From contig NZ_WASP01000010.1 in NCBI RefSeq assembly GCF_009712225.1, positions 193,586-257,585 on the forward strand: a DNA stretch of 64,000 nt. The letters are read 5' to 3'. The notes under the pieces were generated by a model that was not told where the DNA came from, ran no database searches, and saw nothing but the letters and a program-made list of their open reading frames with translations. The DNA is from Desulfovibrio sp. (GTDB lineage: Bacteria; Desulfobacterota; Desulfovibrionia; Desulfovibrionales; Desulfovibrionaceae). How positions within the stretch are numbered: the first letter of the stretch is position 1; each line of letters starts with the position of its first letter. The position numbers and the translations under genes are program-made. Below are positions 4,155-33,603 of this stretch, one piece after another.

Positions 4155-4181
4155 CGTTTTCAAGCCAGCCGAGGAGCTGCC

Positions 4182-10915: not shown

Positions 10916-10918
10916 GGG

Positions 10919-11893: not shown

Positions 11894-12137
11894 TGTTTTT
11901 CCCTTAATAAGGACAACACAAAAGTCTAGAAAAGTAAACGCCACCGGGGTCAGCAATGAGCCCTCCCCCGCTCGGTATGTCAGTGAAGAATTAGTATTTC
12001 TGATATCTAAGCCCAAAAATGAAACGAAGAAGATACACCTACGAAAGCATTCCCAGATAGCTAAAATTGTTATTCATCTAACCTTAAGAATATATTACTC
12101 TTTCAAGAACATCAGAGTAATGCTTCAAATCAACTTG

Positions 12138-12894: not shown

Positions 12895-12962
12895 TGTAAA
12901 TCAAAATACCAAGTAAGAGGGCTGCCTGATGGCGGCCCTCTTGCTTTTGTGGAGGCTAACCC

Positions 12963-14126
12963 ATGGAACAGATGAACCGCACGGAAGGATTGCGGGCTCT
13001 AATCAGACAGGGCCTACAAGCCGTTGCCCACAAAGATACTCTTGCCCATCTGGGCGACAGTTCCAGCTACATCGGTATGAGCGACATTGGCCAGCACTGG
13101 GAATGCCCACGGGCAGCACTGGCAAGAAAGGTGCTCCCCACCACTAACAGCCTGGAGCGTCTGCTTACTCTGCAGCGCGGGCACTGGTTTGAATCTGGGG
13201 TTGGACAAGCTCTGGTATCGCTCGGCCTGCATGTTTTGCCCCAGCTTGAGATCAATTGGCATCATCATGGCGTGCCCATCAAGGCTCATCTCGATTTTGT
13301 GCTGGTCTGGGGCGCACCGGTCAATGCCATACGCATTCTGAAAGTGAAAAGCACAGACAAGCTGCCAGCTTCGCCGCATGATTCTCATCTTCTGCAATTG
13401 CATTGCCAAATCGATCTTCTGACAAAAGCTTGGAACAAACCCGTCTTCAGCCTCCGAGCTGAGGACGGCACGCTTATGCATGACAAAATGACATTTCCAC
13501 AACTTTGCCATGCCCAACTTGGCCTTCAGCTGCACGCAACGGCTGCCGAGACAAGTATGGAGGCATGGTTGCTCTGCCTTTCCATGAAGGAGGTTAAAGC
13601 GTTCGGCCCCTACGGTTTCAATCAGGCCATGCTCGATACGGCCCTTGACCATGCGGCGCAGCTTTGGGGTGAGCTTGCAGCATTCCGCGCCGGGCACATA
13701 ACTCTGGCACATGTGGATTGCGCTCAAGGCTTTTACCCATTGTGCTCGTACTGCGAACACAACGGCGACTGCCCTAAATTTCCGCAGGGCGTGCAAATGC
13801 CACAATGGGAGCCAGCTCTTGAAAAGCTGGCGGCCATTAAGGCGCAGCGTACTGCTTTGGATGCTGAAATTAAAGAAATGGAAACGGTACTCAAGCTGGT
13901 TCACCGCCAGGCTGGCACACGGGATTGGGTAGACACGGGAAACTACCGCTTCCGCATGTCGGTGGCAGCGGGGCGCACCACTTTGGACAAGGATGCTCTG
14001 CGGGAGGAGTTGATCGAGATTTTTCACTCTGAGCATCGGGGTGACATTGACGTGGATACCTTGCTAGCTCGCTGTGAGCGCACAGGGTCACCGTTTGAGA
14101 AATTGAGTATTTCGCCCATAAACTGA
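12963..14126 (+). CDS. Cas4/RecB-like PD-(D/E)XK nuclease, catalytic acid replaced by Lys
   Basis: The protein (387 aa) looks like a phage-type RecB/Cas4-family exonuclease. The core reads AHLDFVLVW, then IRILKVKSTD, then LQLHCQIDLL, the usual order of Asp, (D/E)-x-K and the QxxxY-type helix. Cysteines near 270-285 (LCSYCEHNGDCP) resemble the C-terminal iron-sulfur cysteines of Cas4/AddB-like enzymes. In the central motif the expected E-V-K is K127-V-K129, so the metal-binding acid is missing, a change one base from GAA or GAG. A coiled-coil region (KLAAIKAQRTALDAEIKEME) follows. It pairs with the upstream ERF gene. Start could also be ATG 12972. Confidence 0.7.
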   Translation: MEQMNRTEGLRALIRQGLQAVAHKDTLAHLGDSSSYIGMSDIGQHWECPRAALARKVLPTTNSLERLLTLQRGHWFESGVGQALVSLGLHVLPQLEINWHHHGVPIKAHLDFVLVWGAPVNAIRILKVKSTDKLPASPHDSHLLQLHCQIDLLTKAWNKPVFSLRAEDGTLMHDKMTFPQLCHAQLGLQLHATAAETSMEAWLLCLSMKEVKAFGPYGFNQAMLDTALDHAAQLWGELAAFRAGHITLAHVDCAQGFYPLCSYCEHNGDCPKFPQGVQMPQWEPALEKLAAIKAQRTALDAEIKEMETVLKLVHRQAGTRDWVDTGNYRFRMSVAAGRTTLDKDALREELIEIFHSEHRGDIDVDTLLARCERTGSPFEKLSISPIN

Positions 14127-15022: not shown

Positions 15023-15090
15023 GGGAATCTCCTTTGTCATTATTGTGTACATTCAAGACAAACGTGTCAATAGAACACACAGGAGTAATA

Positions 15091-15621
15091 ATGCAAACTC
15101 CCCTTACTGATGAGCTTGATTCTCTTACCCCCATCGACCTCGATGCCGGTCATATTTTCAGCGGCAAGCCCTCCGGCACCACGGTCAGGGGCTACGCTGT
15201 TCCTTCGGCCTACACCCCGGCAATTAACCACGACTATATTTTCCATGAGTCCAGCCGCGATGTTGTGGTCTGGTTTCTCAACCCACAGGAACCACTGTAC
15301 GTCTTCGGCCCCACTGGTTGCGGCAAAACCAGCTGCATCAAGCAGCTGGCAGCCAGACTTAACTACCCTGTCTTTGAGGTTACCGGACACGGGCGGCTGG
15401 AATTTGCCGACCTGGTTGGTCACCTGACAGTCAAAAACAGCAACATGACCTTTGAATATGGCCCGCTTGCGCTTGCCATACGCTGCGGCGCACTTTTGCT
15501 GCTGAATGAGATCGACCTAACATCCCCTGAAATTGCGGCAGGCTTGAACAGCGTGCTGGACGGCTCCCCCCTGTGCATAGCGGAAAACGGCGGAGAACTG
15601 ATACAGATTTTAGTATGCTGA
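15091..15621 (+). CDS. MoxR/CobS-like AAA ATPase, C-terminally truncated by deletion
   Basis: The start at ATG 15091 follows AGGAG. The 176 residues cover only the first half of a CobS/MoxR-type ATPase: Walker A GPTGCGKT (73-80), a GRLEFADLVGHL loop, and Walker B LLLLNEID (N139/E140 where D/E is usual). Sequence continues to LCIAENGGELIQ, where the family normally runs into a sensor-1 ATAN motif and arginine-finger regions, but here it changes to ILVC and stops. The following VWA gene begins at the same place without its own N-terminus, so one deletion removed the end of this gene and the start of the next. ATP could bind, but hydrolysis and ring function are doubtful. Confidence 0.75.
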   Translation: MQTPLTDELDSLTPIDLDAGHIFSGKPSGTTVRGYAVPSAYTPAINHDYIFHESSRDVVVWFLNPQEPLYVFGPTGCGKTSCIKQLAARLNYPVFEVTGHGRLEFADLVGHLTVKNSNMTFEYGPLALAIRCGALLLLNEIDLTSPEIAAGLNSVLDGSPLCIAENGGELIQILVC

Positions 15622-17042
15622 AAGCTGCAAACCTTGATCCTGTGACCTTTAATTTGTTCAACTGCCTCGAAGATTGGCGTGTTGAAAAGAAGCTGTCGGG
15701 CATTTTCCCCGGCTGCTGGAGAAACCTGAACTGGCTCATACGACGATTCTTTGTAGAGCAAACACAACCAAGGGCCAGGGACGATTCCCCGGTCCTTGCT
15801 GTTTTGGACTATGTGCTGTTGACGGTGAGGGCTTGGGATGTGGACGAGGTGACCCCGGCGCGCCAAAACGCGGCGAGCATCATTGAGCATCACTTCCCCG
15901 GATTAAAAGAGGCCATGGATGCCATCCTGGTCAAGGTCTACATCTATTGCCCTGATACAAAGGCAGCAATTGAATACGCGAAACAGATCGCCCTGTGCAT
16001 CCGGCAGTGGAAACCGCCTCAGCCAACTGCAACCAGCAACTGCTCGAACGCAAACGATAAAAGCGCCGTGCGTCAAACTACAGGGGAAACCAACGATTCT
16101 ACCTCACAAATCGACCAACAACCTGAATCGGCTTGTGACTCTGCGCCGGTTCAACAGTCGAGGGCTTTGAGTGCCTTACCACTCAAGGCCCTGTTTCATG
16201 CTGAGGTCCAGGACCTACCCCAACACATTGGGGAAATTATGGCGATTGAGCTTACCAGTTGCAGCACAGAATCCGCTGGTGACGCGCTGACCATCGCTGT
16301 GGCAGGCACCCGACAAGCAGCCCCCTTGTCAGCAGGGCAGAAGATGCAAGCGCTTCAGGCCAGCATTGCCCTGCGCACTCGCCTTCAGGGCTTTCTGCAG
16401 GCGCAAACGCAAAGGCGATGCAGTATTGGGCGCAGGGGCACACTGCACGCCAATTCGTTATACCGTCTGCAGGTTGGCAATGCTCGTGTTTTCCAAAAAG
16501 AGTCTGTGCAACTGGGCCTCAATACGGCTGTCCATATCCTGCTGGACGTAAGCGGCAGCATGGCTGGCGCACCAATTAACCTTGCCAAGCGAGCCTGCTT
16601 TGCCGTGACAACGGCACTGAGCCGTATCCGTGGCGTGAACCCGGCGGTTACGGCCTTCCCTGCTGCCACGGCGACCAATTCCGTATTCCCCATCATGCGA
16701 CACGGGCAGGCGGTGCCAGACCTGTTTGATATTCGAACTTCTGGCGGGACACCCTTGGCTGGGGCTTTGTGGTGGATTTTGCAAACCATGTTGCCCCTCA
16801 AAGAGCAACGCAAGATGATCTTGGTTATCACTGACGGCATGCCGGACAACCCGCTGGCCGCAAACAATGCCATCGGGGTGGCCCAAAAACTCGGCTTTGA
16901 AATTTATGGCCTTGGCATTCGGGATGAACACATAACACGCCTGCTGCCGCATACCAGCAAGGTGGTCAACGATCTGCCTGATCTGGTGCCTGCCATGTTT
17001 GCCATGTTGCAGGTAGCCTTGCTCAAAAGCGGTGCAGTATGA
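15615..17042 (+). CDS. CobT-like VWA-domain protein, N-terminally truncated
   Basis: Translation could begin at ATG 15615, overlapping the ATPase stop by seven bases (475 aa). The sequence opens inside a helical domain (NLFNCLEDWRVEKKLSG). A Gln/Ser-rich linker follows, then a C-terminal von Willebrand A domain with a full metal-binding MIDAS: DVSGSMAG, the Thr in SGGTPLAGAL and the Asp in VITDGMPDN. VWA proteins of this sort act with MoxR/CobS-like ATPases as metal-insertion or remodelling chaperones. The usual N-terminal segment is missing because of the deletion at about 15605-15620. A 234-bp degraded copy of its MIDAS region lies at 27338-27571. It is unlikely to be the partner of CobN, which has its own ChlI/ChlD. 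Confidence 0.75.
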   Translation: MLKAANLDPVTFNLFNCLEDWRVEKKLSGIFPGCWRNLNWLIRRFFVEQTQPRARDDSPVLAVLDYVLLTVRAWDVDEVTPARQNAASIIEHHFPGLKEAMDAILVKVYIYCPDTKAAIEYAKQIALCIRQWKPPQPTATSNCSNANDKSAVRQTTGETNDSTSQIDQQPESACDSAPVQQSRALSALPLKALFHAEVQDLPQHIGEIMAIELTSCSTESAGDALTIAVAGTRQAAPLSAGQKMQALQASIALRTRLQGFLQAQTQRRCSIGRRGTLHANSLYRLQVGNARVFQKESVQLGLNTAVHILLDVSGSMAGAPINLAKRACFAVTTALSRIRGVNPAVTAFPAATATNSVFPIMRHGQAVPDLFDIRTSGGTPLAGALWWILQTMLPLKEQRKMILVITDGMPDNPLAANNAIGVAQKLGFEIYGLGIRDEHITRLLPHTSKVVNDLPDLVPAMFAMLQVALLKSGAV

Positions 17043-18457: not shown

Positions 18458-18741
18458 TGATCTGTTCATGGGTATATAGAGTAATGCGCCGCTGCGTTGA
18501 AAACTACGCAGTTGGCAAAGCATATTGGTGATATTGAAAAGCAAGGAAGAAATTCAAAATCGAAGAGCTAGAAAACGAAAGGCTTTTTCAGGTGCAATGC
18601 AATTTTCAGCAATTGATCGAAAAAATGTAGCTACGTCAACAAACGCCTTCTCTTTAAAACAATGCTATCGTGCTACAATGGTTGGCAAAGAACACTTAGC
18701 CTTAAGTTCACTTTCACCTAAGTGGGGTCAAAGCATGGGGT

Positions 18742-18838
18742 CAAAGTGCGGGGGCATAGACAAAATCACTGAAAAATTTTATCAACAATATCAGGTTGTT
18801 TTGGACTCGATGGTGTCGCGGTGCCTATTCTCCGCTTC
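18742..18838. repeat. 97-bp island-end repeat, left copy (candidate attachment site)
   Basis: This stretch matches 26371-26467 over its whole length with about seven mismatches, five of them clustered. Just before it the 11-mer TGGGGTCAAAG occurs twice at a 13-base period (18723, 18736), like integrase arm-site repeats. The copy ends CTCCGCTTC and loses the tRNA-like tail present in the right copy. An open frame across it (18525-18851) has no supporting signal. Confidence 0.75.
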
Positions 18839-19322
18839 ATCATATTTTTAGATTCTTTACAGACAACAACATCCTGTAACAACTCATTTTTTATATATAA
18901 AAAAGGGGGGGGGAGAGCCTTTCAAGAACCACAGCAAAAAGTAGTTGCCCCACTGCTTAGTTTTCTGACGATTCACATAATTCGATTGAATTTTATTTTT
19001 TTCATTCCAAGAATAACGTCACGATTTTTAACTCGCATTGGCTTATTTTTTCCCAATCTGGACATACCCCAGCCAGAATGATGGAAAATTTTAACTGTGT
19101 CTCCTGATATTCACTTTCAAGATCAGAACCATGCACCAGGCAGCAACCAACAAAAAGGGTGGAGCTTTCCCGTTGATAACGCCAGCCCTCGGTGAAACCA
19201 TAGTCTCGCCTTTTCCCAAGGCAACAAGCTAGCCCATAGGCCTTACGCACAAACCCGACATGAGACAGAAAGCTTGACACAAATTATTTTTTAATGAACG
19301 ATAAATAAAAAAGGAGGGCACC
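18839..19322. other. AT-rich intergenic segment without a supported gene
   Basis: These 484 bases contain a nine-G homopolymer (18905-18913) and several A/T tracts but no frame with a credible start site or protein character. The last bases hold the ribosome-binding site (GGAGGG) of the rhodanese gene. Confidence 0.5.
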
Positions 19323-19742
19323 TTGAACACGTATAACCATTCCCTGAAATACACCGCGACAGCCATTCTTCTGGTGTGTTTTTTTGCATTTCAGGCATTG
19401 CCAGCAGGGGCACAGATGCCCGAAGCCGGAAGAGTAGACGCATCCGTGGGGAAAAGCCTCATTGACGATTTTGGAAAGCACCTTCTGGTTATTGATGTGA
19501 GGACGCCAGAAGAATTTGGTCAAGGGCATATCCCTGAAGCAGTCAATATTCCCATAGAAGAACTTGCCCAACGGTCTGCGGAGATCCCCCCGAATGTTCC
19601 AACACTTCTGGTTTGCCGCACAGGAAGACGAGCCGAAGCTGCATACTTGACGCTGCAAAAATCCGGGCAGCAGCATGCTCAACTTTGGTACCTCGCCGCA
19701 ACTCCTGTTTACGAAAAAAATGGAACATTTACCTTTAAATAG
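19323..19742 (+). CDS. Exported rhodanese-like sulfurtransferase
   Basis: Translation starts at a TTG placed just after GGAGGG. Residues 1-30 form a Sec signal peptide ending AGAQ, so the 139-aa protein is periplasmic or lipid-free secreted. The rest is one rhodanese domain with LLVIDVRTPEEFGQGHIPEAVNI cut by family-typical features and an active-site loop C98-R-T-G-R-R-A. Rhodaneses carry persulfide on that cysteine and are common in sulfur-metabolising anaerobes and in thiol-stress loci. It opens the presumed oxidant-stress cluster; the DUF417 gene follows after about 70 bases. The short loop favours thiosulfate or small thiols as substrate, but this is inference. Confidence 0.85.
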   Translation: MNTYNHSLKYTATAILLVCFFAFQALPAGAQMPEAGRVDASVGKSLIDDFGKHLLVIDVRTPEEFGQGHIPEAVNIPIEELAQRSAEIPPNVPTLLVCRTGRRAEAAYLTLQKSGQQHAQLWYLAATPVYEKNGTFTFK

Positions 19743-19811
19743 GTGGGATCATCCCCATCCGCGTGTGTACATTTAACATCTCAATAAAACTGCTTTTCTG
19801 GAGAGTATACT

Positions 19812-20375
19812 GTGCAAAAAATATTTGAAGCCATGTCACGAATGGATTCCGTTGCTGTCACCATGGCAAGAGTTGGCATGATCATTGTTTTATTATGGAT
19901 TGGCGGGCTAAAGATTGCTCCCTATGAAGCCGATGGCATTGTTCCATTTGTTGCAAACAGCCCGTTCATGAGCTTCCTGATGGATGCTCCTGACGAATAT
20001 AAAAGTCATATGAATCCCGAAGGCAAGCTGGTTCCGGAAAACAGAGCATGGCACACGCAACATGGAACCTACACAGCCTCCTACATTATCGGCGCAGTAA
20101 TCGTTACCTTGGGGTTAATGCTGTGCCTTCATCCGCTACTGCCACAGGTGGCCGCCATCGGCAGCGCACTGATTGTGGGCATGTCCTTTGTAACCTTGTC
20201 CTTTTTGATTACCACCCCGGAATCATGGGTACCAGCTTTGGGTGATATTGAGCACGGATTTCCATATTTGAGCGGAAGAGGCAGACTTGTTATCAAGGAC
20301 GTGATCATGATGGGGGCGGCAGCCGTTACAATGGTGGACTCCGCAAAGGCATATCTCAAGAAACAACACGCCTGA
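19812..20375 (+). CDS. rclC: DUF417/YkgB (RclC-like) inner-membrane protein
   Basis: The start is a GTG at 19812 preceded by GGAG. The 187-aa protein has about four membrane segments: MARVGMIIVLLWIGGLKI, SYIIGAVIVTLGLMLCL, IGSALIVGMSFVTLSFLI and a weaker C-terminal one. The DUF417 hallmarks WIGGLKIAPYEADGIVPFVANSP (given here in parts) and GRGRLVIKDVIM are present. In Escherichia coli the homologue RclC (YkgB) belongs to the hypochlorous-acid-induced rclABC operon. Its biochemical role is unknown. Neighbours here are a rhodanese, a DUF302 protein and a TetR regulator, supporting a role in reactive-chlorine or thiol stress. The symbol is given by family, not by demonstrated orthology. Confidence 0.75.
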   Translation: MQKIFEAMSRMDSVAVTMARVGMIIVLLWIGGLKIAPYEADGIVPFVANSPFMSFLMDAPDEYKSHMNPEGKLVPENRAWHTQHGTYTASYIIGAVIVTLGLMLCLHPLLPQVAAIGSALIVGMSFVTLSFLITTPESWVPALGDIEHGFPYLSGRGRLVIKDVIMMGAAAVTMVDSAKAYLKKQHA

Positions 20376-20535
20376 AAGAATACGTAACACTATGCCCTGG
20401 CTGCTCATCCAGATTCTGCTGAACAACCAGGGCGTAGATACAAGAGAGGGCCATACCCTTTCGAAAAAGAATTTGACCGCGGTTAAACACGCATCCTGCC
20501 AGGCAGGGCAACCCAATATTGCAAAGGAACAGAAC

Positions 20536-20985
20536 ATGAATACCGAAAACCAACCCTCCCCCCAACCTGCTTCGCAAGAGGTCGATATGAGCAATGTTGT
20601 CGGCCTGCACGCCGTGAGAGCGATGTCGGATGCCCCCACCGTACAACAGCGCCTGGAGAACTGGCTTGCAGAAAAAAATATCCAGATTTTCTACGTTGTG
20701 GACCATGCGGCCAACGCCAAAGCGTACGATCTTTTCCAGCTTCCTGCATGGGTAACCTTCTTTGGAAATCCTGCCGTCGGCACCCCCCTCATGGTGGAAA
20801 ACCCCTTGATGTCTTTGAACCTGCCTCTCAAGGTACTGGTGTATGAAGATGCCTCAGGGGCGACATGGTTGGCCTACCATAATCCTGCACAACAGGCTGC
20901 GGCACTGGGGATAAAGCCAGATCACCCCAGCCTGAAAAAAATGGAAACCCTGCTGAAAACCCTGGCACAGGCTGTAACGGCATAA
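20536..20985 (+). CDS. DUF302-family protein
   Basis: ATG 20536 follows AAAGGAAC; upstream in-frame codons look non-coding. The 149-aa cytoplasmic protein has the DUF302 core: RLENWLAEKNIQIFYVVDHA near 38-57, then FGNPAVGTPLMVENPLMSL, PLKVLVYEDASG and WLAYHNPA. DUF302 proteins form a compact alpha/beta fold and often sit next to redox, DoxX/DUF417 or sulfur-transfer genes; the activity is unknown. The N-terminal ~18 residues are Pro/Ser/Gln-rich. It probably shares the transcript of the DUF417 gene despite the 160-base gap. Confidence 0.8.
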   Translation: MNTENQPSPQPASQEVDMSNVVGLHAVRAMSDAPTVQQRLENWLAEKNIQIFYVVDHAANAKAYDLFQLPAWVTFFGNPAVGTPLMVENPLMSLNLPLKVLVYEDASGATWLAYHNPAQQAAALGIKPDHPSLKKMETLLKTLAQAVTA

Positions 20986-21027
20986 CCCCGTAAATCATGC
21001 AACTATGCCGGAATCAAGAGGTATTAC

Positions 21028-21663
21028 ATGGGTAGAGCACCTAGTTACGATAAAGAAGTTTTGCTGAAAAAGCTCACCGACTGCTTTTGGGAATATGGGC
21101 ATTCTGCCCCTGTGAGTTTTTTGGTTGAGCAGGCTGGTGTTAATGCGGCCAGCCTGTACGCCGCTTTTGGAAGTAAAAAGGGCATGATCCATGCCACCAT
21201 AAAAGATTACGCCCGTGAAGCATGCACTGAAGTAACCGAGCTTCTGGGAAAAAACAGTCCTGGCCGCGAGCAGATACGATATTTTCTTCAAACCTTGCTG
21301 GATACAGGGCTGGCTGATCCCAAGTCCAGGGGATGTTTTCTTGTTAACAGCATACTTGAAGCACATTTCGATGACCCGGAGATCAGGGCAATTCTTAATA
21401 CGTGCATGGATGACCTGCGGGCAATTTTTCAAAAGCACCTTGCGCTTGCAAAAGATTTGCGCCCCGGCATCACTGCGGCAGAGGCGGCGCTATTCCTTCA
21501 GGTTCAGGTATGGGGCATCAAGATGATGGTCAAAATGGGATTACCTGCGGAATCAGGGCAAACCCTTATTGAACAGACTCTTTGCAGGCTATTTGCGGAT
21601 AAACCCGAAATTCAGGAAAAAGCCGCCCCCAATCGGCAATGTGGGGGCAGACAACATGCTTAA
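21028..21663 (+). CDS. TetR-family transcriptional regulator
   Basis: The 211-aa protein begins with an N-terminal TetR helix-turn-helix (LLKKLTDCFWEYGHSAPVSF, then VNAASLYAAFGSKKGMI, about 12-55). The C-terminal ligand or dimer domain includes SRGCFLVNSILEAHFDDPEI. Four cysteines are spread through it; TetR members such as NemR sense hypochlorite and electrophiles through cysteine, so thiol sensing is a reasonable but unproven idea. It overlaps the transporter gene by eight bases and probably controls this cluster. Confidence 0.9.
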   Translation: MGRAPSYDKEVLLKKLTDCFWEYGHSAPVSFLVEQAGVNAASLYAAFGSKKGMIHATIKDYAREACTEVTELLGKNSPGREQIRYFLQTLLDTGLADPKSRGCFLVNSILEAHFDDPEIRAILNTCMDDLRAIFQKHLALAKDLRPGITAAEAALFLQVQVWGIKMMVKMGLPAESGQTLIEQTLCRLFADKPEIQEKAAPNRQCGGRQHA

Positions 21664-22624
21664 ACGTATTTCCCCTGTCCCGGTTAATTACTTTGCCATT
21701 GTTCTTGGCTTGTTGGGATTGGGTCTGTCCTGGCGCTATGGTTCCAACGCCGGGCTTCTACCGGCTTGGCCGGGGCATGCCCTGCTTCTGACTGGCGCAA
21801 TTTTGTGGTTATTTTTGCTCTGCACATATATTTATAAATGGGTATGCCAAAAAAATGCAGCTCTTGAAGAACTGCATCATGTCATCCAATGCTGCTTCAT
21901 AAGCCTGATCCCCATAACTACGCTGTTGATGGGCATTACCGTCTTGCCATATTCCAGAGTTTTCTCATGGATACTGCTTGCAGCTGGAATAATCGGACAG
22001 CTGGGTTTTGCCGCTTATCGTGGAGGAGGACTGTGGCGCGGCACGCATGTGGCTGAGGCAACAACGCCCATCATCTATTTACCAGCTGTTGCCGCCAACT
22101 TTGTTTGCGCATCAGCAATGGGTGCCACAGGGCATCTGCTATGGGGAACATTGTTTTTTGGCGCTGGCATGCTTTCCTGGCTGAGCCTCGAGGCCGCAAT
22201 ACTGCACAGATTAAGAACCATGCAAGCGCTTGCAGCGGCTGCGCGCCCGGTGATTGGCATCCAGCTGGCCCCAGCTTTTGTCGGTTGCGCTGCCTACCTA
22301 TCGATAAACGGAGGGGAAATTGACGCAATTGCCCTGGCGCTGATCGGCTATGGCATTTTGCAGGCCATTTTTTTACTCAGGCTTTTGCCTTGGGCGCTGG
22401 AGGGAGGCTTCACACCCTCATTTTGGGCTTTTTCATTTGGCCTGGCTTCAATGGCTGGCTGCGGTCTTCGGATGATAACATTCTACAGCAAAACCGGTGA
22501 GAATGATTTGCTAGCCCTCGGCTGGGGCCTTTTTGGCATGGGAACATTCTGCATAGTGGCTCTCATAGCATTTACCCTGTTGTTTTTTATAAAAAAGTTA
22601 CAAAACCATACGGTTGATGCGTAG
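21656..22624 (+). CDS. TDT/SLAC1 (TehA-like) family membrane transporter
   Basis: Starting at ATG 21656 inside the TetR gene end, the 322-aa protein has about ten hydrophobic helices, from NYFAIVLGLLGLGLSWRYG to FGMGTFCIVALIAFTLLFFI. The PVPVNYFAIVLGLLGLGL start and the helix pattern fit the tellurite-resistance/dicarboxylate transporter (TDT) family related to plant SLAC1 anion channels. Substrate could be a small anion; sulfite, C4-dicarboxylate and tellurite-linked exporters are known members. The overlap shows translational coupling with the regulator, so the transporter is probably induced by the signal that the TetR protein senses. Confidence 0.75.
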   Translation: MLKRISPVPVNYFAIVLGLLGLGLSWRYGSNAGLLPAWPGHALLLTGAILWLFLLCTYIYKWVCQKNAALEELHHVIQCCFISLIPITTLLMGITVLPYSRVFSWILLAAGIIGQLGFAAYRGGGLWRGTHVAEATTPIIYLPAVAANFVCASAMGATGHLLWGTLFFGAGMLSWLSLEAAILHRLRTMQALAAAARPVIGIQLAPAFVGCAAYLSINGGEIDAIALALIGYGILQAIFLLRLLPWALEGGFTPSFWAFSFGLASMAGCGLRMITFYSKTGENDLLALGWGLFGMGTFCIVALIAFTLLFFIKKLQNHTVDA

Positions 22625-22707
22625 TAATACTTCCCTCTAGGATTCACCCGACAAGTACGTGGGAGATACAAGAGAACAGATGTAATCAACTGTAGCAAAA
22701 AATATTG

Positions 22708-22724
22708 ATAATAAATACTATTAT
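22708..22724. promoter_or_regulatory. AT-rich dyad upstream of catalase, PerR/Fur-box-like
   Basis: ATAATA-N5-TATTAT lies about 200 bases before the catalase start in a 299-base non-coding gap (22625-22923). Its A/T dyad resembles PerR or Fur operators, which often control catalases, but the half-site spacing is not exact. The remaining gap shows no other feature. Confidence 0.25.
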
Positions 22725-22923
22725 TATTTACACGGACAACTATTCTAGCTATCATAAGCCAGTTGAGTTGAAAACAACGCGCCATGACAGTTGTAATATT
22801 TGTAAGACATCTCAACAAAATAGCTACCGTTAGCGTGGCGCTTTGATCGTGCGACAGCAGCACTTCTTTGCCCGCATGTGAGATGGCTGCAGTTTTACTA
22901 ACCTATATTAAAAGGGGAACAGC

Positions 22924-24384
22924 ATGAAAAATGATCACAGTAACAAACTTACCAACAACGCCGGAGCCCCTGTTGCCGATAACAATCGTGTAATGACCGC
23001 CGGGCCCCAAGGGCCAATGCTTCTTCAGAACGTTTGGTTTCTTGAAAAACTGGCTCATTTTGATCGGGAGGTGATCCCGGAACGTCGCATGCATGCTAAG
23101 GGATCCGGCGCTTATGGCACGTTCACTGTCACACATGACATCACGAATTACACAAAGGCTTCTGTCTTTTCTGAAATTGGTAAAAAAACAGACCTGTTCG
23201 TTCGATTCTCGACCGTTGCTGGTGAGCGAGGGGCAGCCGATGCAGAGCGGGACATTCGCGGTTTTGCCATCAAATTTTATACAGATCAGGGCAACTGGGA
23301 CCTTGTTGGCAACAACACCCCTGTGTTTTTTTTGAGAGACCCACTAAAGTTTCCTGACCTCAACCATGTGGTCAAACGCAATCCCCGCACCAACATGCAC
23401 AGTGCGGCGGATAACTGGGACTTTTGGTCGCTTCTGCCAGAAGCGTTGCATCAGGTTACCGTCGTCATGAGTGATCGCGGCATTCCTGCTTCATATCGGC
23501 ACATGCACGGTTTCGGCAGCCACACATTCAGCTTTATCAATGCACAGAATGAGCGCTATTGGGTGAAGTTCCATTTTCGCACGCAGCAAGGCATTAAAAA
23601 CCTCACTGACGCCGAAGCGCAGGAACTAGTTGGTAAGGATCGCGACAGCCACCAAAGGGACCTTTTCGAACATATTGAAAAAGGTGATTTCCCACGTTGG
23701 ACGCTATTTGTTCAGGTCATGCCAGAAGCTGCAGCAGAAAAACTTCCCTACCATCCTTTTGACCTGACAAAGGTGTGGTACCATAAGGATTGCCCTCTCA
23801 TTGAGGTTGGCGTTCTGGAGCTCAATCGTAACCCGGAAAACTATTTTGCAGAAGTTGAACAAGCCGCTTTTAACCCCACCAATATTGTACCGGGCATAGG
23901 CTTGTCTCCTGACAAAATGTTACAGGGAAGGCTGTTCTCTTATGGGGACGCCCAACGCTACCGGCTGGGCGTTAACCACCACCTCATTCCTGTAAACAAA
24001 TCGCGCTGCCCCTTCCACAGTTACCACCGTGATGGTCAGATGCGTGTAGACGGCAACTATGGGGGGCTCACCAATTATGAGCCTAACAGCCATGGGATAT
24101 GGCAGGAACAAGCAGAATTTATCGAACCGCCTTTAAAAATCAGCGGAGATGCTGACCATTGGTCATATCCGTGCGATGATGCGGACTATTTCGAGCAACC
24201 AGGAAAATTGTTCAGAATAATGAGTCCTGAGCAGCAAGAGGTATTGTTTGGCAATACCGCCCGCGCCCTTGGAGATGCCCCCGAAGAAATAAAGCTGCGA
24301 CACATTAGGAATTGCGCAAAAGCTGATCCGGCATATGGAGCGGGAGTGGCACGAGCTTGCGATATTCCGGCAGAAAAAATCTAG
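22924..24384 (+). CDS. katA: Monofunctional haem catalase (KatA-type)
   Basis: The 486-aa length is that of small-subunit clade-3 catalases, which turn two hydrogen peroxide molecules into water and oxygen in the cytoplasm. The distal catalytic His57 ([12 protein letters not shown]) and Asn130 ([10 protein letters not shown]) are present, and the proximal haem ligand is Tyr340 ([14 protein letters not shown]). The NADPH-binding region typical of this clade follows. A GGGGAAC site precedes ATG 22924. The gene has its own leader and terminator, so it is a separate transcription unit within the oxidant-stress island. No lesion is seen. Catalases are sporadic in Desulfovibrio and often acquired. 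Confidence 0.95.
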
Positions 24385-24445
24385 TTCCATCCCATTACGG
24401 AAATTATTCGACAGAATCGCAATCTTTCTGCAACAGTCCATAACA

Positions 24446-24480
24446 CTTTAGGGTAGTGCCTTGCGCACTACCCTAAAGAT
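24446..24480 (+). terminator. Terminator hairpin after katA
   Basis: A perfect 14-bp stem (24446-24459 with 24465-24478, loop CTTGC) lies 60 bases past the katA stop. The T-tract is poor (ATATA), but the stem is the strongest in the interval between katA and the chemoreceptor gene. Confidence 0.7.
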
Positions 24481-24558
24481 ATACAGCTATAAGCCGATTA
24501 TAGGATAATAAAAAATTTATTGAGGCACATTGTTTTCGCTTTGAATGAGGAGAGAGTC

Positions 24559-26307
24559 ATGCATAACGTACCTAGGAGTTACAGTAAGTTCTATCTCACG
24601 CTTGTTAGTCTTCTTATTATTAATTGTGTCCTAACTATCTATGCTGTGTTTTCCTCTAATTTTTCGTTAATGCCAACACTTGCTGCGGGATGGACAGTAT
24701 TCACTGCATTGTGCATATGGTTCGGATTTTCTTGTTTGCGCCCAATGGCACACCAGCTTAGTATACATCGAAACGCAATAGACCGACTGACGACTGGTAA
24801 TTTGAGCGGCTGCCATAGTTCCAGTGAAAGTTGTTCCGCGATTATGCGGATGCGTACTTACGCCATTAAAGATAGAAATGCTATCTCGACTATCTCCGCT
24901 TACAGCTTTGATTTTGAAAAGAACTCTGACCAAGCCAGCACTAAAGCCCAGACAGCTCTACGTGACACTTCCGCCATTAATGATGAAACTCTGCTTCTTT
25001 TGGGTGAGATGGAATCTGTGGATTTGTCCGCCAGGGAAGTTGCTAGCCATGTCGCCGGGATTGCTACAGGCGTAAGCCAAATGTGTCAATCAAGCCAATC
25101 CATTGCCAGTAATATGGAAAGCGCTCTGGAAGCTGCGGAGCAGGTATCACATACCGCCCGTGAAAACTCTCTTCGCATTGAATCACTTGGAGAACAGGCC
25201 GCACAAGGCATTGTTGGCTTACGCAACCTCAACGATTCAATCGCAGGTGTACGGGAACAGGCAGTATCTCTCAGAACGGATATGGAAGCATTAGGCCAGG
25301 ACAGTCAGTCTATTGGTGCGATTTTGGGTGTTATTGCTGACATCGCAGACCAAACGAATCTCCTCGCGTTAAATGCAGCCATTGAAGCCGCCAGGGCTGG
25401 AGAATCAGGCAGGGGATTCGCAGTTGTTGCCGATGAAGTACGCAAGCTTGCAGAAAAGACTATGAATGCAACCAAAGATGTGGAAACGGCAATAAGATCT
25501 ATCCAAACAATGGCCAGCAGCAATCTTGCTTCAACGGAACATGCCGTGACTGCAATCGAAAAAAGTATGAGTGTGGCCGAAGAGCAGATTCGTGAAACTG
25601 ACAGCCTTATGGAAGCTATGCACATTGTGAGTCAAGAAGTCGGAAGCATTAATTCTGACGTTAATGCCCTCAAAGACATGATATTTAGTTCTTCAAAAGC
25701 CACAGGTGAACATTCACAAGCATCTGTAGACATTTCAAAAATGATGACAACTATAACTGAAACAACGGACAACATGCGCGACAGAGCCCACAAAGGGCAT
25801 CTCTCAGTTCAAAATATATCTCAAAATGTAAATTCTGTTAATTCTACAATTGCAGAGATGGCGACCAGCACCATTCAGGTCAATTCTTCGGCCAGGGAAC
25901 TAACCAGTTTGACCAAAGGGATGAACAAATCCATTTGCGAATTTAATCTTGGCGATGAACCTTTTGATGTAGGTGCCATCAAAACTGCGCATTTGGCATG
26001 GCGATCACGCTTGGAAGCGGTACTGCAAGGACATATGTTCCTGAAGTCAGCAGAGATGATCGATCACCACCAGTGCGCCTTCGGTAAATGGTATGACGGT
26101 GAAGGACAACGCAATTGGGGTAACAACCCAATCTTTCAGGAAATAGGAAAACTCCACGAACAGGTACATGCTTTGGCTATCCGCATAGCAGCCTTGGTCG
26201 AACAAGGTAACAAGAGAGAAGCACAAGACATTATGCCTGAATTTGAAGAAGTTCGCCAAAAGTTGTTTGACGAGCTTGATCACCTTTATCTTGCCATGTC
26301 GGCGTAA
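24559..26307 (+). CDS. Methyl-accepting chemotaxis protein with C-terminal CZB zinc-binding domain
   Basis: ATG 24559 follows GAGGAGAG, giving 582 residues. Two closely spaced membrane helices near 12-35 and 42-62 leave almost no periplasmic loop, so sensing must be cytoplasmic. The signalling hairpin tip [19 protein letters not shown] is typical. The last 120 residues form a chemoreceptor zinc-binding (CZB) domain: H478 in the HLAW motif, then H504-x-C506-x-F-G-K-W-Y and a final LHEQVHAL. In Helicobacter TlpD, E. coli DgcZ and relatives, the zinc-thiolate cysteine of CZB domains senses hypochlorous acid or zinc. Lying beside katA and an RclC homologue, it probably guides movement with respect to neutrophil-type oxidants. 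Confidence 0.9.
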
Positions 26308-26370
26308 GCGGTTCTCGTCCCGGCTACCTTTTGTGCTGAATTTTCACGTAAGTCACAGCTACTATGGGGG

Positions 26371-26475
26371 CAAAGTGCGGGGGCATAGACAAAAATCTCG
26401 AAAAATTTTATCAATAATATCAGGTTGTTTTGGACTCGATGGTGTCGCGGTGCCTATTCTCCCCTTCGGCACCAT
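26371..26475. repeat. 97-bp island-end repeat, right copy, running into a tRNA 3'-end-like sequence (candidate attR)
   Basis: Bases 26371-26467 repeat 18742-18838. The copy continues into TTCTCCCCTTCGGCACCA (26458-26475), which reads as the last bases of a tRNA: a 3' acceptor strand CTTCGGC, discriminator A and CCA. Many bacterial tRNA-Leu genes begin GCCGAAG and would pair with it. No 5' part of the tRNA is present here. This is what an attR site left by integration at a tRNA 3' end looks like, with the intact tRNA expected left of the window. Confidence 0.6.
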
Positions 26476-26476
26476 C

Positions 26477-26540
26477 TTGAACTCCAAGAGAGTTCAAAGA
26501 AGCCCGCTAAGCTAACAGCTTGGCGGGTTTTCTGCTTTTT
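26477..26540 (+). terminator. Double hairpin with T-tract, probable original tRNA terminator
   Basis: An 8-bp perfect stem (TTGAACTC with GAGTTCAA, 26477-26497) is followed at once by a 14-bp stem (26500-26513 with 26517-26530, two G-U pairs) and TCTGCTTTTT. This immediately follows the tRNA-like CCA, where a tRNA gene's terminator would be. Confidence 0.75.
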
Positions 26541-26799
26541 AAGGCTCCAACCAAGTTCAGCTACGTCTTTTGACATACCCCAATATTGGCTGGGGGTACG
26601 AAGACTAAAAAGCCGGTTGGAAGCCATTTCAATACCCCCAGAGCGCAAAGCATTGCTGGCCGCCTGTTTCTCAACATTTCCCGTCTTCCACCTCTCCGCA
26701 CCTCACCGATACCCCCACGGGGGGAGCGCAATGCTTTGATATTGAATGCTTTGAGAAGGCATACGCCGCGATAGCCAGAATCAATTTTCTGAAACTGTA
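26541..26799. other. Non-coding segment with an inverted repeat
   Basis: No gene is supported. The only structure seen is an 11-bp inverted repeat, CAAAGCATTGC at 26646-26656 and GCAATGCTTTG at 26728-26738, each preceded by GAGCG-like bases and runs of C or G. Confidence 0.4.
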
Positions 26800-27325: not shown

Positions 27326-27337
27326 AATCGGGCCACG

Positions 27338-27571
27338 TAACCTCGCCAATCGAACCTGCTTTGCCGTGGCAACTGCGCGGGGCCATGTCCATGGCGAGAA
27401 TCCGGCAGTGATGGCCTTCCCTGATACCGCGGGCACGAACTCTGTATTTCCCATCATGCGGCACGGACAAGCGGTGCCAGATTTGTTCGATATTCGGACT
27501 CCAGGCGGGACATCGTTGGCTTCGGCTTTATGGTGGGTTGCAACCTATGCTGACCCGCAAAGAGCAGCGAA
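27338..27571 (+). pseudogene. Fragment of a second CobT-like VWA gene
   Basis: This segment aligns with 16577-16815 of the intact-frame VWA gene. Shared stretches include TNSVFPIMRHGQAVPDLFDI at protein level and a GG(T)xLA MIDAS-Thr region. The MIDAS DxSxS strand upstream is absent, and the reading frame leaves the family sequence after the AGAGCAGCGAA bases. There the DNA changes abruptly into an ABC-transporter ATPase. The copy has diverged by many substitutions, so the duplication is not recent. Confidence 0.85.
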
Positions 27572-27895
27572 GGGGTGGCGCTTGCCCGTGCTCTTGCGGA
27601 GGAGCCGGAACAGCTGTTTGACGAACAGACTGCCGCGCTGGATTGGCGGGTGCAGAGGGACATCTGCAATGCAGTTGCCACACTGCGAGAAACATTCAAC
27701 CTCTTCGCCATCATGGTAACGCATGACCCCAACGCAGTGTTTGCACTGGCTCAAAAGGTTGCCATGCTACGGGCTGGCGGCCTGTTCTGGCAGGGTGATG
27801 CTCAGGATGCCATTAATGCTGACCTGCTGAGTAATCCGTATGCCGTGCCTATTCAGATAGAATACAGTGGCGAGCGCATGGCGGCCTTGTTTTGA
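27572..27895 (+). pseudogene. C-terminal fragment of a metal ABC transporter ATPase
   Basis: The frame starts inside the family at VALARALAEEPEQ, the helix after the ABC signature, and continues through a damaged Walker B. Here LFDEQTAALD replaces the usual LLLDEPTAALD, with a residue missing and Pro changed to Gln. It then reads MVTHDPNAVFALAQKVAMLR and ends at TGA 27895. Walker A and the signature are lost at the junction with the VWA fragment. It precedes a ZnuB-like permease remnant, so the original was a zinc/manganese-type importer. Confidence 0.8.
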
Positions 27896-30566: not shown

Positions 30567-32599
30567 GCCGTCATCTCCCGCACAAGCCCCACCAGGGTGG
30601 ACGCCCGCAGATTTTGTACCGGCAGATACTCGGCCCGCAGGGCCTTTGCCAGCTGACGCGCCTGCCCAAATTGCAGCAAACCGGCCTGCTCCACATCAAT
30701 CACAAACGAATGCACGCGCGCATCCTGCGCAATACGGCCAGCTTCAGCCAACGCGGCATCCAGAGCGGAACCTTCCTCCAAACGGGGCGTCAAGTTGGCC
30801 CTGCCGTCTGAAACCACAATCAGAATGGGGCGAGTATCGGGCTTTTTGCGCAGGGCAGTGCCAATAACGCGAAACGATTCTTTCAGGCCATCTGCCAAAG
30901 GTGTGCGCCCGCCTGTGGGCAGTATTTCCAGTTCGCGTGATGCGCGCTCCACACTGCCGGTGGGCGGCAGCAAAACCTTGCCCTGCTGCCCACGAAAAGC
31001 CACCAGCGAGACCTGGTCGCGCTTTTGATACGCGTGCAGCAGCAAAGACAGAATTGCGCTTTTGACCTCGCACATGCGTCCGGCAGCCCCCATGGAACCA
31101 GAGGCATCCACAGCAAATACCACAAGATTGCCAATCTTTCGTTCGCGGCGTTTATAGCGCCAGTCCTGCCTCTGCACCTGAAGCGGATAGCCCGCGCCTC
31201 CTCTCATGCTTGCAGCCATGCGCAAGACCGCAGCCATAATTGTGGGTTCCAGCGCGATATCAGGAGAGGCATTGCCCTGCAGGGGGCGGTGTGAATAGCC
31301 CACGCACCGGCCGCATTTTTGTGCCGTACGCGAGCGGCTGTGCCGCCCACTGCCGCTGCGCTGGCGTTTGTCGGCAGCGGTTTGCAGCGGCTTGACCCGA
31401 TACGGATCGCCAGCCGAAAAAACTTCTTCCCTGTCCATGCCGGAAGAATCGGCTGTCGCCTCCGCATTGTCCTGATCCTGCGGGGCAACTTCCATCTGGC
31501 TGGCATCCAGAGGCTCCTGCGACGCAAAAGGTGTCTGCCCCGGCGCTGAGGGTTGGGGCGTCTGCTCTTCATGTTCGTGCTGCGACTGAGCGGCCCCGGC
31601 AGTATTTTGCTCTGGCAGCTGCGGTGCCTGCATGCGTCGCCGATGTACAAGAGCCAAGGCCGCCGCCTCCTGCACATGCTCATCACGCACAGCCGGGCAG
31701 CCATCAAGAGCAGCAAGGGCGCGGGCGGCATGCAACAGCGCAAGTTCACCGCGATGGCCAGCGCACAGAGCCTCTGCGCACAGCGTAGCCATGTCTTTCA
31801 GCAAGGTTTCGGAAACGCGCACCTCTGGCAACAATGCCTTGGCTTTCATAAGCATGTCGGCCACGGCCTGCTGCCGCTCCTGCCATGTAGCCAAAAAGGT
31901 TGCGATATCCCCATCAAAAGCCATGCGCCGCCGCAAAACCTCCATACGGGTTGCAACGTCCTGTGGGGCCAGCACGTCGACGCAAAGGCCAAAACGGTCT
32001 AGTAGCTGTGGTCGTAGCGGCCCTTCTTCGGGGTTCATGCTGCCAATAAGTGCAAAGCTTGATGCGTGTACAAAGGCGCAGCCGTCACGCTCAACCCTGT
32101 TCACCCCGCTGGCGCACACGTCCAGCAACAGGTCAACCATGTGGTCGGGCAGCAGATTGACCTCGTCCACATACAGCATGCCCCTGTGGGCAAGTGCCAG
32201 TAGCCCCGGCTGCATGCGTCTTTTGCCCCTGCCTATGGCTGATTCCATGTCCATGCTGCCAACCAGCCGGTCTTCTGTGGATGAAAGCGGCAGCGTCACA
32301 AGAGGAGTTTGCACCTGCGCCACGGGCAAGGGGCCATTCTTTGCGGCGGCGGCGCAACTCGGGCACAGCGGCCCTGTGGGAGAACAATGCCATGCACACC
32401 CGCGCACCACGGAAACATACGGCAACAACCCCACCAATGCGCGCACTGCTGTAGATTTGGCTGTACCCTTTTGCCCGCGCAAAAGCACACCGCCGATTTC
32501 GGGGCACAGCGCATTGGCAAGCAGGGCCCGCGTCATAAGCGGTTGCCCGGTCAGTGCCGCAAAAGGAAATACAGGCCGGGTCGGCCCGTTTACTTTCAT
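30563..32599 (-). CDS. chlD: ChlD/BchD-like chelatase subunit (AAA plus VWA)
   Basis: The 678-aa protein joins an N-terminal ChlI-like AAA module to a C-terminal VWA domain through a Gln/Pro/Glu-rich linker (about 325-420). The Walker A loop RGQKGTAKST (41-50) is intact, unlike many BchD proteins. Cysteines C68, C72, C79 and C82 form a cluster like that in the neighbouring ChlI. The VWA MIDAS begins DASGSMGA, with the Thr in GGRTPLADGL. With ChlI it should form the ATP-driven ring that powers metal insertion or removal by CobN. It overlaps chlI and the binding-protein gene by four bases each. Confidence 0.9.
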   Translation of the reverse strand: MKVNGPTRPVFPFAALTGQPLMTRALLANALCPEIGGVLLRGQKGTAKSTAVRALVGLLPYVSVVRGCAWHCSPTGPLCPSCAAAAKNGPLPVAQVQTPLVTLPLSSTEDRLVGSMDMESAIGRGKRRMQPGLLALAHRGMLYVDEVNLLPDHMVDLLLDVCASGVNRVERDGCAFVHASSFALIGSMNPEEGPLRPQLLDRFGLCVDVLAPQDVATRMEVLRRRMAFDGDIATFLATWQERQQAVADMLMKAKALLPEVRVSETLLKDMATLCAEALCAGHRGELALLHAARALAALDGCPAVRDEHVQEAAALALVHRRRMQAPQLPEQNTAGAAQSQHEHEEQTPQPSAPGQTPFASQEPLDASQMEVAPQDQDNAEATADSSGMDREEVFSAGDPYRVKPLQTAADKRQRSGSGRHSRSRTAQKCGRCVGYSHRPLQGNASPDIALEPTIMAAVLRMAASMRGGAGYPLQVQRQDWRYKRRERKIGNLVVFAVDASGSMGAAGRMCEVKSAILSLLLHAYQKRDQVSLVAFRGQQGKVLLPPTGSVERASRELEILPTGGRTPLADGLKESFRVIGTALRKKPDTRPILIVVSDGRANLTPRLEEGSALDAALAEAGRIAQDARVHSFVIDVEQAGLLQFGQARQLAKALRAEYLPVQNLRASTLVGLVREMTA

Positions 32600-33603
32600 G
32601 CAGACTGCCCGCCCACAGATTCAAAAGGATTACGCCGCATGCGGTGCGGCAAGGCCAGACTTGCAGCTTTATCCACATCCTCGCAGGCAACATCGGCGCG
32701 CCCGTTCAGGGCGGCCAAGGTGCTGGCTGTTTTGAGCATCACAATATCCGCGCGGTGACCGTCTACCTGAGCGGCGATGGCGTGCTCCACAACCCTGTGC
32801 ATGCAGACATCGTCTGCCTGTACCATGGGCAGCAGGCGGCGTGCCTGCATGATCCTGTCTGCCAGCTTGCGATCCTGCTCCTGCCATGTTGCGCAAAATT
32901 CTGCCGGATCACGTTCAAAATCCATGCGGCGCTTCATGACCGTCATGCGCTGCTCTGGCTCGGCCATGCCGCGCACGTGCACGCAAAGACCGAACCTGTC
33001 CAGCAGCTGGGGGCGCAGCTCGCCTTCCTCCGGGTTCATGGTTCCCACCAGGGTAAACCTGGCAGGATGCGACCACGAAAGCCCCTCACGTTCAACAGTG
33101 TTGACGCCCATGGCCGCAGCGTCCAGCAGCACATCAACAATGTGGTCTTCCAGCAGGTTGACCTCGTCCACATAAAGTATGCCCCGGTTGGCCGACGCCA
33201 GAAGGCCGTGTTCAAAACGGCGACGACCAGAGGCAAGGGCAACCTCCATATCAAGCGAACCAACAACCCGGTCTTCGCTTGCGCACACGGGCAGTTCCGT
33301 AACGCGCACACGGCGTTTTTCCTTTGTCAGCTCGCCCTTGTCGATAAGCTCGTCGCGGCACAGAGGGCAAAGGGTGTCGGCGGCCTCAGGGTTGCAGTTG
33401 CACGGACAGCCTTTTACCACGTTCATTTCTGGCAAAATGGCCGCCAGTGCCCGTACAGCGGTGGATTTTGCCGTGCCTTTTTCACCCCGCACAAGCACCC
33501 CGCCGATGCCCGGATTGACCACATTGAGCAGCAGGGCTTCCTTCAAGGTTTCCTGCCCTGCAATTGCTGAAAATGGATAGAAATACTGCTGTGACCTGCT
33601 CAT
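32596..33603 (-). CDS. chlI: ChlI/BchI-like AAA chelatase subunit
   Basis: The 335-aa AAA+ protein has Walker A RGEKGTAKST (39-48), Walker B ILYVDEVNLL and the sensor-1 TMNPEEGELRPQLLDRFGL segment with the arginine finger, all typical of magnesium-chelatase I subunits. A five-cysteine cluster (C66-P-C68-N-C70 and C79-P-L-C82) interrupts the usual loop after Walker A and could bind zinc or an iron-sulfur cluster. Such ChlI/ChlD proteins serve CobN-type large subunits in organisms without CobS and CobT. It overlaps cobN and chlD by four bases. Confidence 0.92.
   Translation of the reverse strand: MSRSQQYFYPFSAIAGQETLKEALLLNVVNPGIGGVLVRGEKGTAKSTAVRALAAILPEMNVVKGCPCNCNPEAADTLCPLCRDELIDKGELTKEKRRVRVTELPVCASEDRVVGSLDMEVALASGRRRFEHGLLASANRGILYVDEVNLLEDHIVDVLLDAAAMGVNTVEREGLSWSHPARFTLVGTMNPEEGELRPQLLDRFGLCVHVRGMAEPEQRMTVMKRRMDFERDPAEFCATWQEQDRKLADRIMQARRLLPMVQADDVCMHRVVEHAIAAQVDGHRADIVMLKTASTLAALNGRADVACEDVDKAASLALPHRMRRNPFESVGGQSA

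Follow-up and report, generated by a model that had tools for sequence, protein, structure and literature searches.

A predicted TetR-switched Rcl-type operon and a katA-CZB receptor module, probably under separate control, at the end of a tRNA-Leu island in a Desulfovibrio species

Introduction

The closest described relatives of the locus treated here are the RclR-RclABC system of Escherichia coli and the rcrARB cluster of uropathogenic E. coli (UPEC). RclA is described as a reductase linked to chlorine and hypothiocyanous acid (HOSCN) stress (PMC7527725, PMC12096828), and the role of the DUF417 membrane proteins RclC and RcrB in E. coli is stated to be unknown (PMC12096828, PMC9600549); in one review RclC is given a quinone-binding label (PMC7464077). 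Among TetR-family regulators, hypochlorous acid (HOCl) joins Cys106 of NemR to Lys175 according to the same review (PMC7464077), and RcrR uses Cys54 and Cys95 (PMC9600549). Proteins with a CZB domain, recognized by the motif CX(L/F)GXW(Y/L), also answer zinc and other cues (PMC8262984). The present work concerns a block of seven genes at positions 19323-26307 of a 64,000-nt stretch of Desulfovibrio sp. DNA (the window; C10:193586-257585, contig NZ_WASP01000010.1 of a 3.67-Mb genome in 21 contigs). The analysis indicates that the block is probably made up of two separately controlled oxidant modules rather than a single regulon: module A, comprising genes for a rhodanese, an RclC-like protein, a DUF302 protein, a TetR-family regulator and TehA, and module B, comprising katA and a gene for a CZB chemoreceptor. 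No description of this TetR-rhodanese-RclC regulon was seen in the literature searched, which consisted of open-licence papers. Positions without a prefix refer to the window, and C, G and L numbers are our handles for contigs, genomes and loci.

Results

Gene content of the block

Annotation of the block proteins against Pfam and NCBIfam models, together with a repeat search, bore out the gene content proposed in an earlier, sequence-only reading of the window. The rhodanese, RclC-like DUF417 protein, DUF302 protein, TetR regulator, TDT transporter, KatA and CZB receptor are all encoded on the + strand, roughly where that reading had placed them and between direct repeats (Table 1). The tehA open reading frame (ORF) overlaps the 3' end of tetR.

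The RclC-like protein is 49% identical to K-12 RclC over 185 residues, and RclC was the sole NCBIfam model that it matched. The rhodanese is a single-domain protein with a TTG start and, by eye, a CRTGRR loop; it is probably exported, as judged from a signal peptide read by eye.

A shared predicted operator and its co-occurring genes

Module A is preceded by a single promoter, and a palindrome-like site, TTTAAYnAnCGnTAnnTAA, lies across its -10 region. The pattern was derived from three promoters: that of the window and those in the tetR/rhodanese gaps of L007 (the locus in genome G026) and of G144. When the window and L007 promoters were compared, the best ungapped 22-nt match had a score of 17, a value that 2 of 300 shuffles attained when one side was shuffled and 0 of 300 when both were. 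The pattern was found, unfitted, at five further Desulfovibrionaceae promoters, which were all that were looked at: exact copies at the rclC promoters of G144 and G170 and the tetR/rhodanese promoter of G170, and copies with one mismatch at the rclC and tetR/rhodanese promoters of G073 (locus L008). All nine sites, counting the second copy in the window's own genome, lie 10-20 nt downstream of a TTGAC(A/G) box, which matches the expectation for a repressor site covering the promoter. Across 79 genomes of the genus, the operator had 7 exact matches: each of the three rclC-positive genomes contributed two, and G148 the remaining one. The reversed pattern, used as a control, also matched 7 times, never in one of the rclC-positive genomes. 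At one mismatch or fewer, the operator was matched twice in the own genome, each time upstream of a rhodanese gene; no match was present in the 620,751 bases of 33 RclC loci that lie outside the Desulfovibrionaceae. Conservation of the site suggests that the TetR protein binds the predicted operator of module A.

The exact match in G148 (L121:1501-1519 = G148:C151:5263-5281) coincides with the 3' end of a distantly related TetR gene (27% identity) and precedes a gene that by eye resembles one for a radical-SAM protein. G148 is without a DUF417 match, and tblastn detected no rhodanese, rclC or RclA in this 2.4-kb locus.

The genes that accompany the operator also occur together. DUF417 is rare, having been detected in 3 of 79 genus genomes and 3 of 119 genomes of the larger family, with the own genome in both sets and five species in all; these are sampled genomes, and further family members may carry it. 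The TetR regulator is present in all five rclC-positive species, is 41-46% identical in the relatives, and is always near a rhodanese gene (5/5), the two being divergent neighbors in all four relatives. At E <= 1e-15, it was found among 297 genomes of the phylum in the own genome and G144 alone, both rclC-positive. As the operator is missing from the RclC loci outside the family, and the TetR protein was not found at E <= 1e-8 in 8 genomes that carry such loci, the switch looks peculiar to the Desulfovibrionaceae version.

In G073, G144 and G170, the gene after the TetR-linked rhodanese encodes an FAD oxidoreductase for which RclA is the best-scoring NCBIfam model. The scores (597, 549 and 568 bits, respectively) are all below the cut-off of 740, which was passed by one of 14 control genomes. 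Identity to K-12 RclA is 53%, 48% and 50%, respectively, and a CINIAC (CxxxxC) center is present in the G073 and G144 proteins, the two checked. An RclA orthologue is thereby placed beside the TetR operator in 3 of 5 rclC-positive species; none was found in G026 (best 218 bits). Given the operator shared by five species and the RclA found in three, module A appears to be a TetR-switched regulon of the Rcl type, and it is most likely a variant of the Rcl/Rcr-type chlorine or HOSCN response in which the rhodanese is the constant partner. DUF302 follows rclC in G144 and G170 and was not found beside rclC in G073 or L007.

Two further observations concern the rhodanese neighborhood. In G144, an oxidoreductase that carries a rhodanese domain fused to its C terminus (L114:9894-11600) is encoded about 2.2 kb from tetR, near the rhodanese-RclA operon, and G170 (L115) has a second rhodanese match at a similar position.

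Among 35 RclC loci searched with the window proteins as queries, the five-gene order of module A was not found, a search that distant DUF302 or TetR neighbors could escape, and only L007 has tetR and rhodanese genes beside rclC. A rhodanese gene about 5.9 kb from rclC in L035 and a catalase gene about 5.1 kb away in L039 were taken as unrelated. Many close relatives of RclC come from environmental Planctomycetes and Flavobacteria. DUF417 was matched on 318 plasmid records, each at less than 60% identity, and a scan of IMG/VR for close relatives confirmed no RclC on viral contigs.

Candidate sensor residues of the TetR protein

Cys103 of the window TetR aligns with Cys106 of NemR and Cys95 of RcrR and is invariant across the second copy, L007, NemR and RcrR. 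Lys169 aligns with NemR Lys175, and both own copies hold the C103 and K169 pair. These residues suggest that the regulator may sense HOCl or HOSCN.

Module A would then be an autoregulated operon, in which TetR occupies the palindrome across the -10 region and prevents transcription until its oxidation by HOCl, chloramines or HOSCN, most likely at Cys103, releases it. Once induced, the rhodanese, the RclC-type membrane protein and the DUF302 protein would relieve hypohalous or pseudo-hypohalous stress in the envelope, and TehA may move an anion. In the three relatives that have it, the RclA-type reductase belongs to the regulon.

Structural model of RclC and a sulfur-based alternative

An AlphaFold2 model of the RclC-like protein (32 sequences) is helical, with a mean predicted local distance difference test score (pLDDT) of 86 and a predicted template modeling score (pTM) of 0.80. 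Foldseek gave no match in the PDB at E <= 0.001. With VIA-align, the top match was NACHO/TMEM35A (Z 10.7, root-mean-square deviation 3.1, 125 residues aligned), which lies below the caution level for helical bundles; such bundles can reach Z values of this size by chance. NACHO/TMEM35A is DoxX-like, which would fit the quinone-binding label of RclC. By profile, the DoxX clan was represented by very weak MauE matches alone, in 6 of 32 members.

This structural match also bears on the chief rival explanation, in which the TetR protein senses reactive sulfur (sulfite, thiosulfate or polysulfide) or cyanide rather than chlorine, the rhodanese transfers sulfane sulfur, TehA (SLAC1/Ssu1-like) serves as a sulfite exporter, and RclC and DUF302 have accessory roles. 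The TDT/SLAC1 family includes sulfite exporters, and the Desulfovibrionaceae are largely sulfidogens; the rhodanese is moreover the most constant of the tetR-linked genes, and DoxX domains have been linked to archaeal sulfur oxidation proteins (PMC6930017). The RclA orthologue under the same operator in three relatives argues for a chlorine or HOSCN response instead, and TehA, the proposed exporter, was not detected alongside the regulon in the relatives. A sulfur-stress operon of this kind is judged unlikely.

Probable separate control of katA and the chemoreceptor gene

The sequence-only reading had treated all seven genes as one coordinated unit with which the bacterium senses, avoids and detoxifies neutrophil oxidants. 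The block is compact, on one strand and enclosed by repeats, both katA copies of the own genome are directly followed by a CZB receptor gene, and a decayed tehA end before the katA copy on contig C6 shows an adjacency older than that copy. A genome-wide scan, however, gave no operator at katA or the receptor gene at one mismatch or fewer, a different palindrome is located upstream of katA, and each module persists alone elsewhere in the own genome. In a genus sample of 61 genomes, katA was present in 29 and CZB proteins in 20, and in the 14 genomes besides the own one that have both, proximity on a contig was seen in 0 of 14; two have them on the same contig, more than 600 kb apart. As many of the 61 assemblies are fragmented, some pairs could be hidden in this count. 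With 0 of 14 showing proximity, katA and CZB genes are scattered in relatives, the outcome that the earlier reading had itself named as refuting it, and a single unit of seven genes appears very unlikely. What stands of its link to HOCl is the RclC-like DUF417 protein, the RclA-linked operator in three relatives, TetR Cys103 and the CZB motif.

A first-draft operator pattern had matched near katA at 22681 and 22892 with 3 mismatches. No match remained at one mismatch with the refined pattern, and by eye the stretch at 22681 is not preserved in the C6 copy.

In relatives, a 19-nt palindrome with at most 3 mismatches from AATAGTAATAATTACTATT was found in 18 of 20 distinct katA promoters, at a distance of about 100-140 nt upstream of the start; the consensus was drawn from the same 20-promoter set that was scored. 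This palindrome we take to be a Fur/PerR-type site. The C6 katA copy carries GATAATGAATATCATTATC in almost the same position as the window box, a 17/19 match to the Fur box consensus. The window katA box looks like a candidate Fur/PerR-type site, separate from the TetR operator. Within module B, KatA would remove hydrogen peroxide under a PerR/Fur-type regulator, and the receptor may steer swimming by oxidant or zinc state. The receptor's CZB motif, CAFGKWY at Cys519 (numbering of the TTG-started ORF), fits the described pattern, and His491, 505, 516, 517, 546, 550 and 588 are present as candidates for the three His ligands of the 3 His/1 Cys zinc site. As CZB proteins answer zinc and other cues, HOCl is only one option for this receptor. 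The hairpin between katA and the receptor gene is retained in copy 3 with one loop change, over the part compared.

Duplicated copies and history of the modules

Both modules are duplicated in the own genome. A second copy of module A (window 19249-22635) occupies C10:263471-266858 at 92% DNA identity, with rhodanese, rclC, DUF302 and tetR genes and a frameshifted tehA, and with neither katA nor a receptor gene there; the similarity extends from 25 nt before the -35 box to just past tehA. Its rhodanese is 85% identical to that of the window. The second copy of module B, at C6:48419-52396, encodes a catalase with 99% and a receptor with 95% protein identity. Upstream of this katA lies the decayed tehA 3' end (67% DNA identity over the tehA end and spacer), in which one 61-residue stretch, 44% identical, was recognized. 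The remnant shows that modules A and B were neighbors before the C6 copy came into being; the modules probably travel on islands. The ratio of nonsynonymous to synonymous substitution rates (dN/dS) between copies was 0.04 for katA and 0.15-0.38 for the other genes (5' part only for tehA), so the seven proteins are under purifying selection.

The frameshift of the second tehA copy falls at a seven-G run (L042:9530-9550); it may mark a true pseudogene, a phase-variable tract or a fault in the assembly.

A tRNA-Leu island carrying the block

The direct repeats that flank the block are 104 nt long and 92% identical, and have only these two copies in the own genome; the left one ends 484 nt before the first gene. 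In G166, a single sequence corresponds to both copies and continues into the right flank. The right repeat stops at the attachment core and so resembles the end of an element rather than a transposon repeat. As candidates for a tRNA or another known RNA, the repeats were rejected: ARAGORN found no tRNA in the window, and Rfam gave nothing at E <= 0.5 over 14-30 kb. The intact tRNA-Leu(CAG) gene of the own genome, whose 3' end shares the core, is followed at once by a gene for a tyrosine-recombinase-type integrase (PF00589, 8.8e-8). In G133, a stretch matching window 26458-26727 directly follows an intact tRNA-Leu(CAG), and the left flank (138 nt, 91%) and right flank (279 nt, 92%) meet at the core, the pattern of an empty site. 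The shared core and the meeting of the G133 flanks define an island of about 39.5 kb, from the tRNA to position 26478; its tRNA target, its integrase, its matching att cores and the empty site of G133 are the marks of a tRNA-integrated genomic island. Within it, the block forms the cargo next to attR. Copies of the island backbone are also present in G137, in G166 and on C6, the last sharing 97% DNA identity with the window over 2.6 kb.

Such a position is also where unrelated cargo might collect passively, and the stretch from backbone to end repeat does vary between islands; katA and CZB proteins, moreover, are each frequent in the genus on their own. Module A, on the other hand, has a shared operator and a five-species co-occurrence, and the genes are under purifying selection, which makes passive accumulation quite unlikely as an account of the block; for the pairing of module A with module B, it may apply.

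Table 1. Positions of the features discussed, in window coordinates unless prefixed
Feature	Position	Strand	Remarks
Type I restriction-modification genes (hsdM, hsdS, hsdR types)	670-7247	+	in island
Erf-like annealing protein (PF04404) and gene with weak RecE-like match (3.3e-4)	12193-14126	+	island backbone
CobS-like AAA and CobT-like vWA genes	15034-17042	+	island backbone
Left direct repeat	18735-18838	+	degenerate second copy of the attR-side island end, without intact tRNA core
-35 element TTGACA, module A	19274-19279	+	identical in second copy L042
Predicted TetR operator TTTAATGAACGATAAATAA	19290-19308	+	10 nt past -35 box, overlaps -10 region
Rhodanese	19323-19742	+	PF00581, 1.4e-14
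DUF417 (RclC-like membrane protein)	19812-20375	+	PF04224, 2.6e-58; NCBIfam RclC 255.7 bits (below cut-off 275)
DUF302 protein	20536-20985	+	1e-17
TetR-family regulator	21028-21663	+	TetR_N 1.1e-5
TehA/SLAC1-type (SLAC1/TDT) anion channel or transporter	21656-22624	+	NCBIfam TehA 379 bits (above cut-off 342)
Candidate PerR/Fur-like palindrome	22704-22722	+	220 nt upstream of katA
katA, monofunctional catalase	22924-24384	+	1e-191; resembles genus catalases
Hairpin, 13-nt arms	24447-24477	+	between katA and receptor gene; no T-run
Membrane methyl-accepting chemotaxis protein, C-terminal CZB	24520-26307	+	ORF opens at TTG 24520; CZB 3.1e-15
Preferred start of the CZB receptor	ATG 24559 (24559-26307)	+	behind GAGGAGAG; favored over TTG 24520
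Right direct repeat	26364-26467	+	element arm beside attR
attR core TCTCCCCTTCGGCACCATCTT	26458-26478	+	common to 3' end of intact tRNA-Leu(CAG), C10:180501-180587

Several observations concern the island and its surroundings. Relative to L077:15601-17377, the window has a deletion of about 1.8 kb at 15602-15607, by which its CobT-like vWA gene has been joined to a truncated CobS-like AAA gene; the C6 island is intact here. Just outside attR, window 27333-27895 holds a 239-nt vWA gene piece, 79% identical to 16572-16810, followed by what by eye appears to be the C-terminal piece of an ABC ATPase and then by an ABC-3 permease; vWA pieces resembling it occur in G169, G137, G166 and G040. Near the type I restriction-modification genes of the island, a subtilase gene and the adjoining AAA ATPase gene (window 8426-12016, - strand) may form a defence pair. 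An island-borne protein of 1141 residues with an autotransporter beta-domain is encoded at L089:11087-14512. Outside the island, neighboring stretches at window 31842-32567 and 32843-33577 are 60% alike and may be a tandem duplication, the first lying in a gene that by eye is magnesium-chelatase-type ATPase-like.

Discussion

Several results weigh against the two modules and the TetR-switched Rcl-type response as set out above. When a longer operator pattern was used at one mismatch, the reversed control also matched once (in G073), and the palindrome of the window operator copy is imperfect (70%). The own genome is without an RclA orthologue, its best scores being 213.4 and 207.6 bits against 548-596 in the relatives, so the reductase of the known Rcl system is missing here, and a tblastn search of the other four species gave no tehA homologue close to rclC or tetR. 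The TetR protein is an orthologue of neither described sensor (22% identity to RcrR over 89 residues, E 0.034; 27% to NemR over 79 residues, E 0.003), and the position of Lys169 is Arg in the L007 protein. The same conserved Cys is also present in CifR, another TetR of the group, which senses epoxides, so Cys103 is compatible with chlorine sensing and is no proof of it. In module B, the window katA box has 4 mismatches to the consensus of the relatives and lies about 100 nt farther from the start than theirs, and its scores were equaled by shuffles in 7 of 100 cases for the Fur score and 4 of 100 for the palindrome score.

Two separately controlled oxidant modules nevertheless remain the probable composition of the block. 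A more speculative and unlikely proposal is that the Desulfovibrionaceae possess a TetR-switched Rcl regulon with an exported rhodanese and an RclC-type protein, often with DUF302, as constant core and RclA as an optional member. In the present species this core, which is without RclA, has acquired TehA and is duplicated and island-borne, might detoxify HOCl/HOSCN or their sulfur products by an RclA-free route through membrane quinone and sulfane sulfur. If true, such a route would give RclC, whose function in E. coli is unknown, a biochemical partner. The operator that links RclC to the rhodanese in five species and to RclA in three is an independent guilt-by-regulation clue, pointing to sulfur transfer, and one TetR, one site and few genes offer an experimental handle. 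The regulon suggests that some sulfidogens may have a chlorine or HOSCN response; should the hosts prove to be gut species, this would matter for gut inflammation. Setting katA and the receptor gene apart from the regulon also corrects a tempting single-island reading.

Comparison with known systems

Among described sensors, module B is closest to the CZB proteins of the TlpD/DgcZ type, with which the receptor shares the CZB motif and several His residues nearby; unlike them, it has two N-terminal membrane helices, as read by eye. The TetR protein resembles NemR of the NemR/NemA-GloA system in its aligned Cys and Lys (C106-K175 versus C103-K169) and differs from it in low overall identity, in other target genes and in the remaining NemR cysteines, which are not conserved in the window protein. 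As an analogy, the DoxX-Sse-SodA membrane oxidoreductase complex of Mycobacterium tuberculosis likewise joins a thiol-oxidoreductase or sulfurtransferase partner to a small membrane protein in oxidant defence (PMC6930017); the DoxX likeness of DUF417 consists of the weak structural match and the very weak MauE profile matches given above.

The UPEC rcrARB cluster shares with module A a TetR-family repressor and an RclC-homologous DUF417 protein, and Cys95 of RcrR aligns with Cys103; in strain CFT073 the cluster lies about 36 kb from a tRNA-Phe with an integrase. It differs in that rcrA is a DUF1471 gene and the three-gene cluster is without rhodanese, DUF302 and tehA. Besides the low identity of RcrR, the RclC-like protein is 25% identical to RcrB over 106 residues, and the position of RcrR Cys54 is taken by Ile58 in the window TetR.

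The E. coli RclR-RclABC system is approached through RclC and through the RclA orthologues in the regulon of the relatives (48-53% identical to K-12 RclA). A search confined to the seven block proteins gave no match to RclB (DUF1471). In contrast to E. coli, where RclR is an AraC-type activator, the block has a TetR-type regulator, adds a rhodanese and DUF302, and belongs to a genome without an RclA orthologue.

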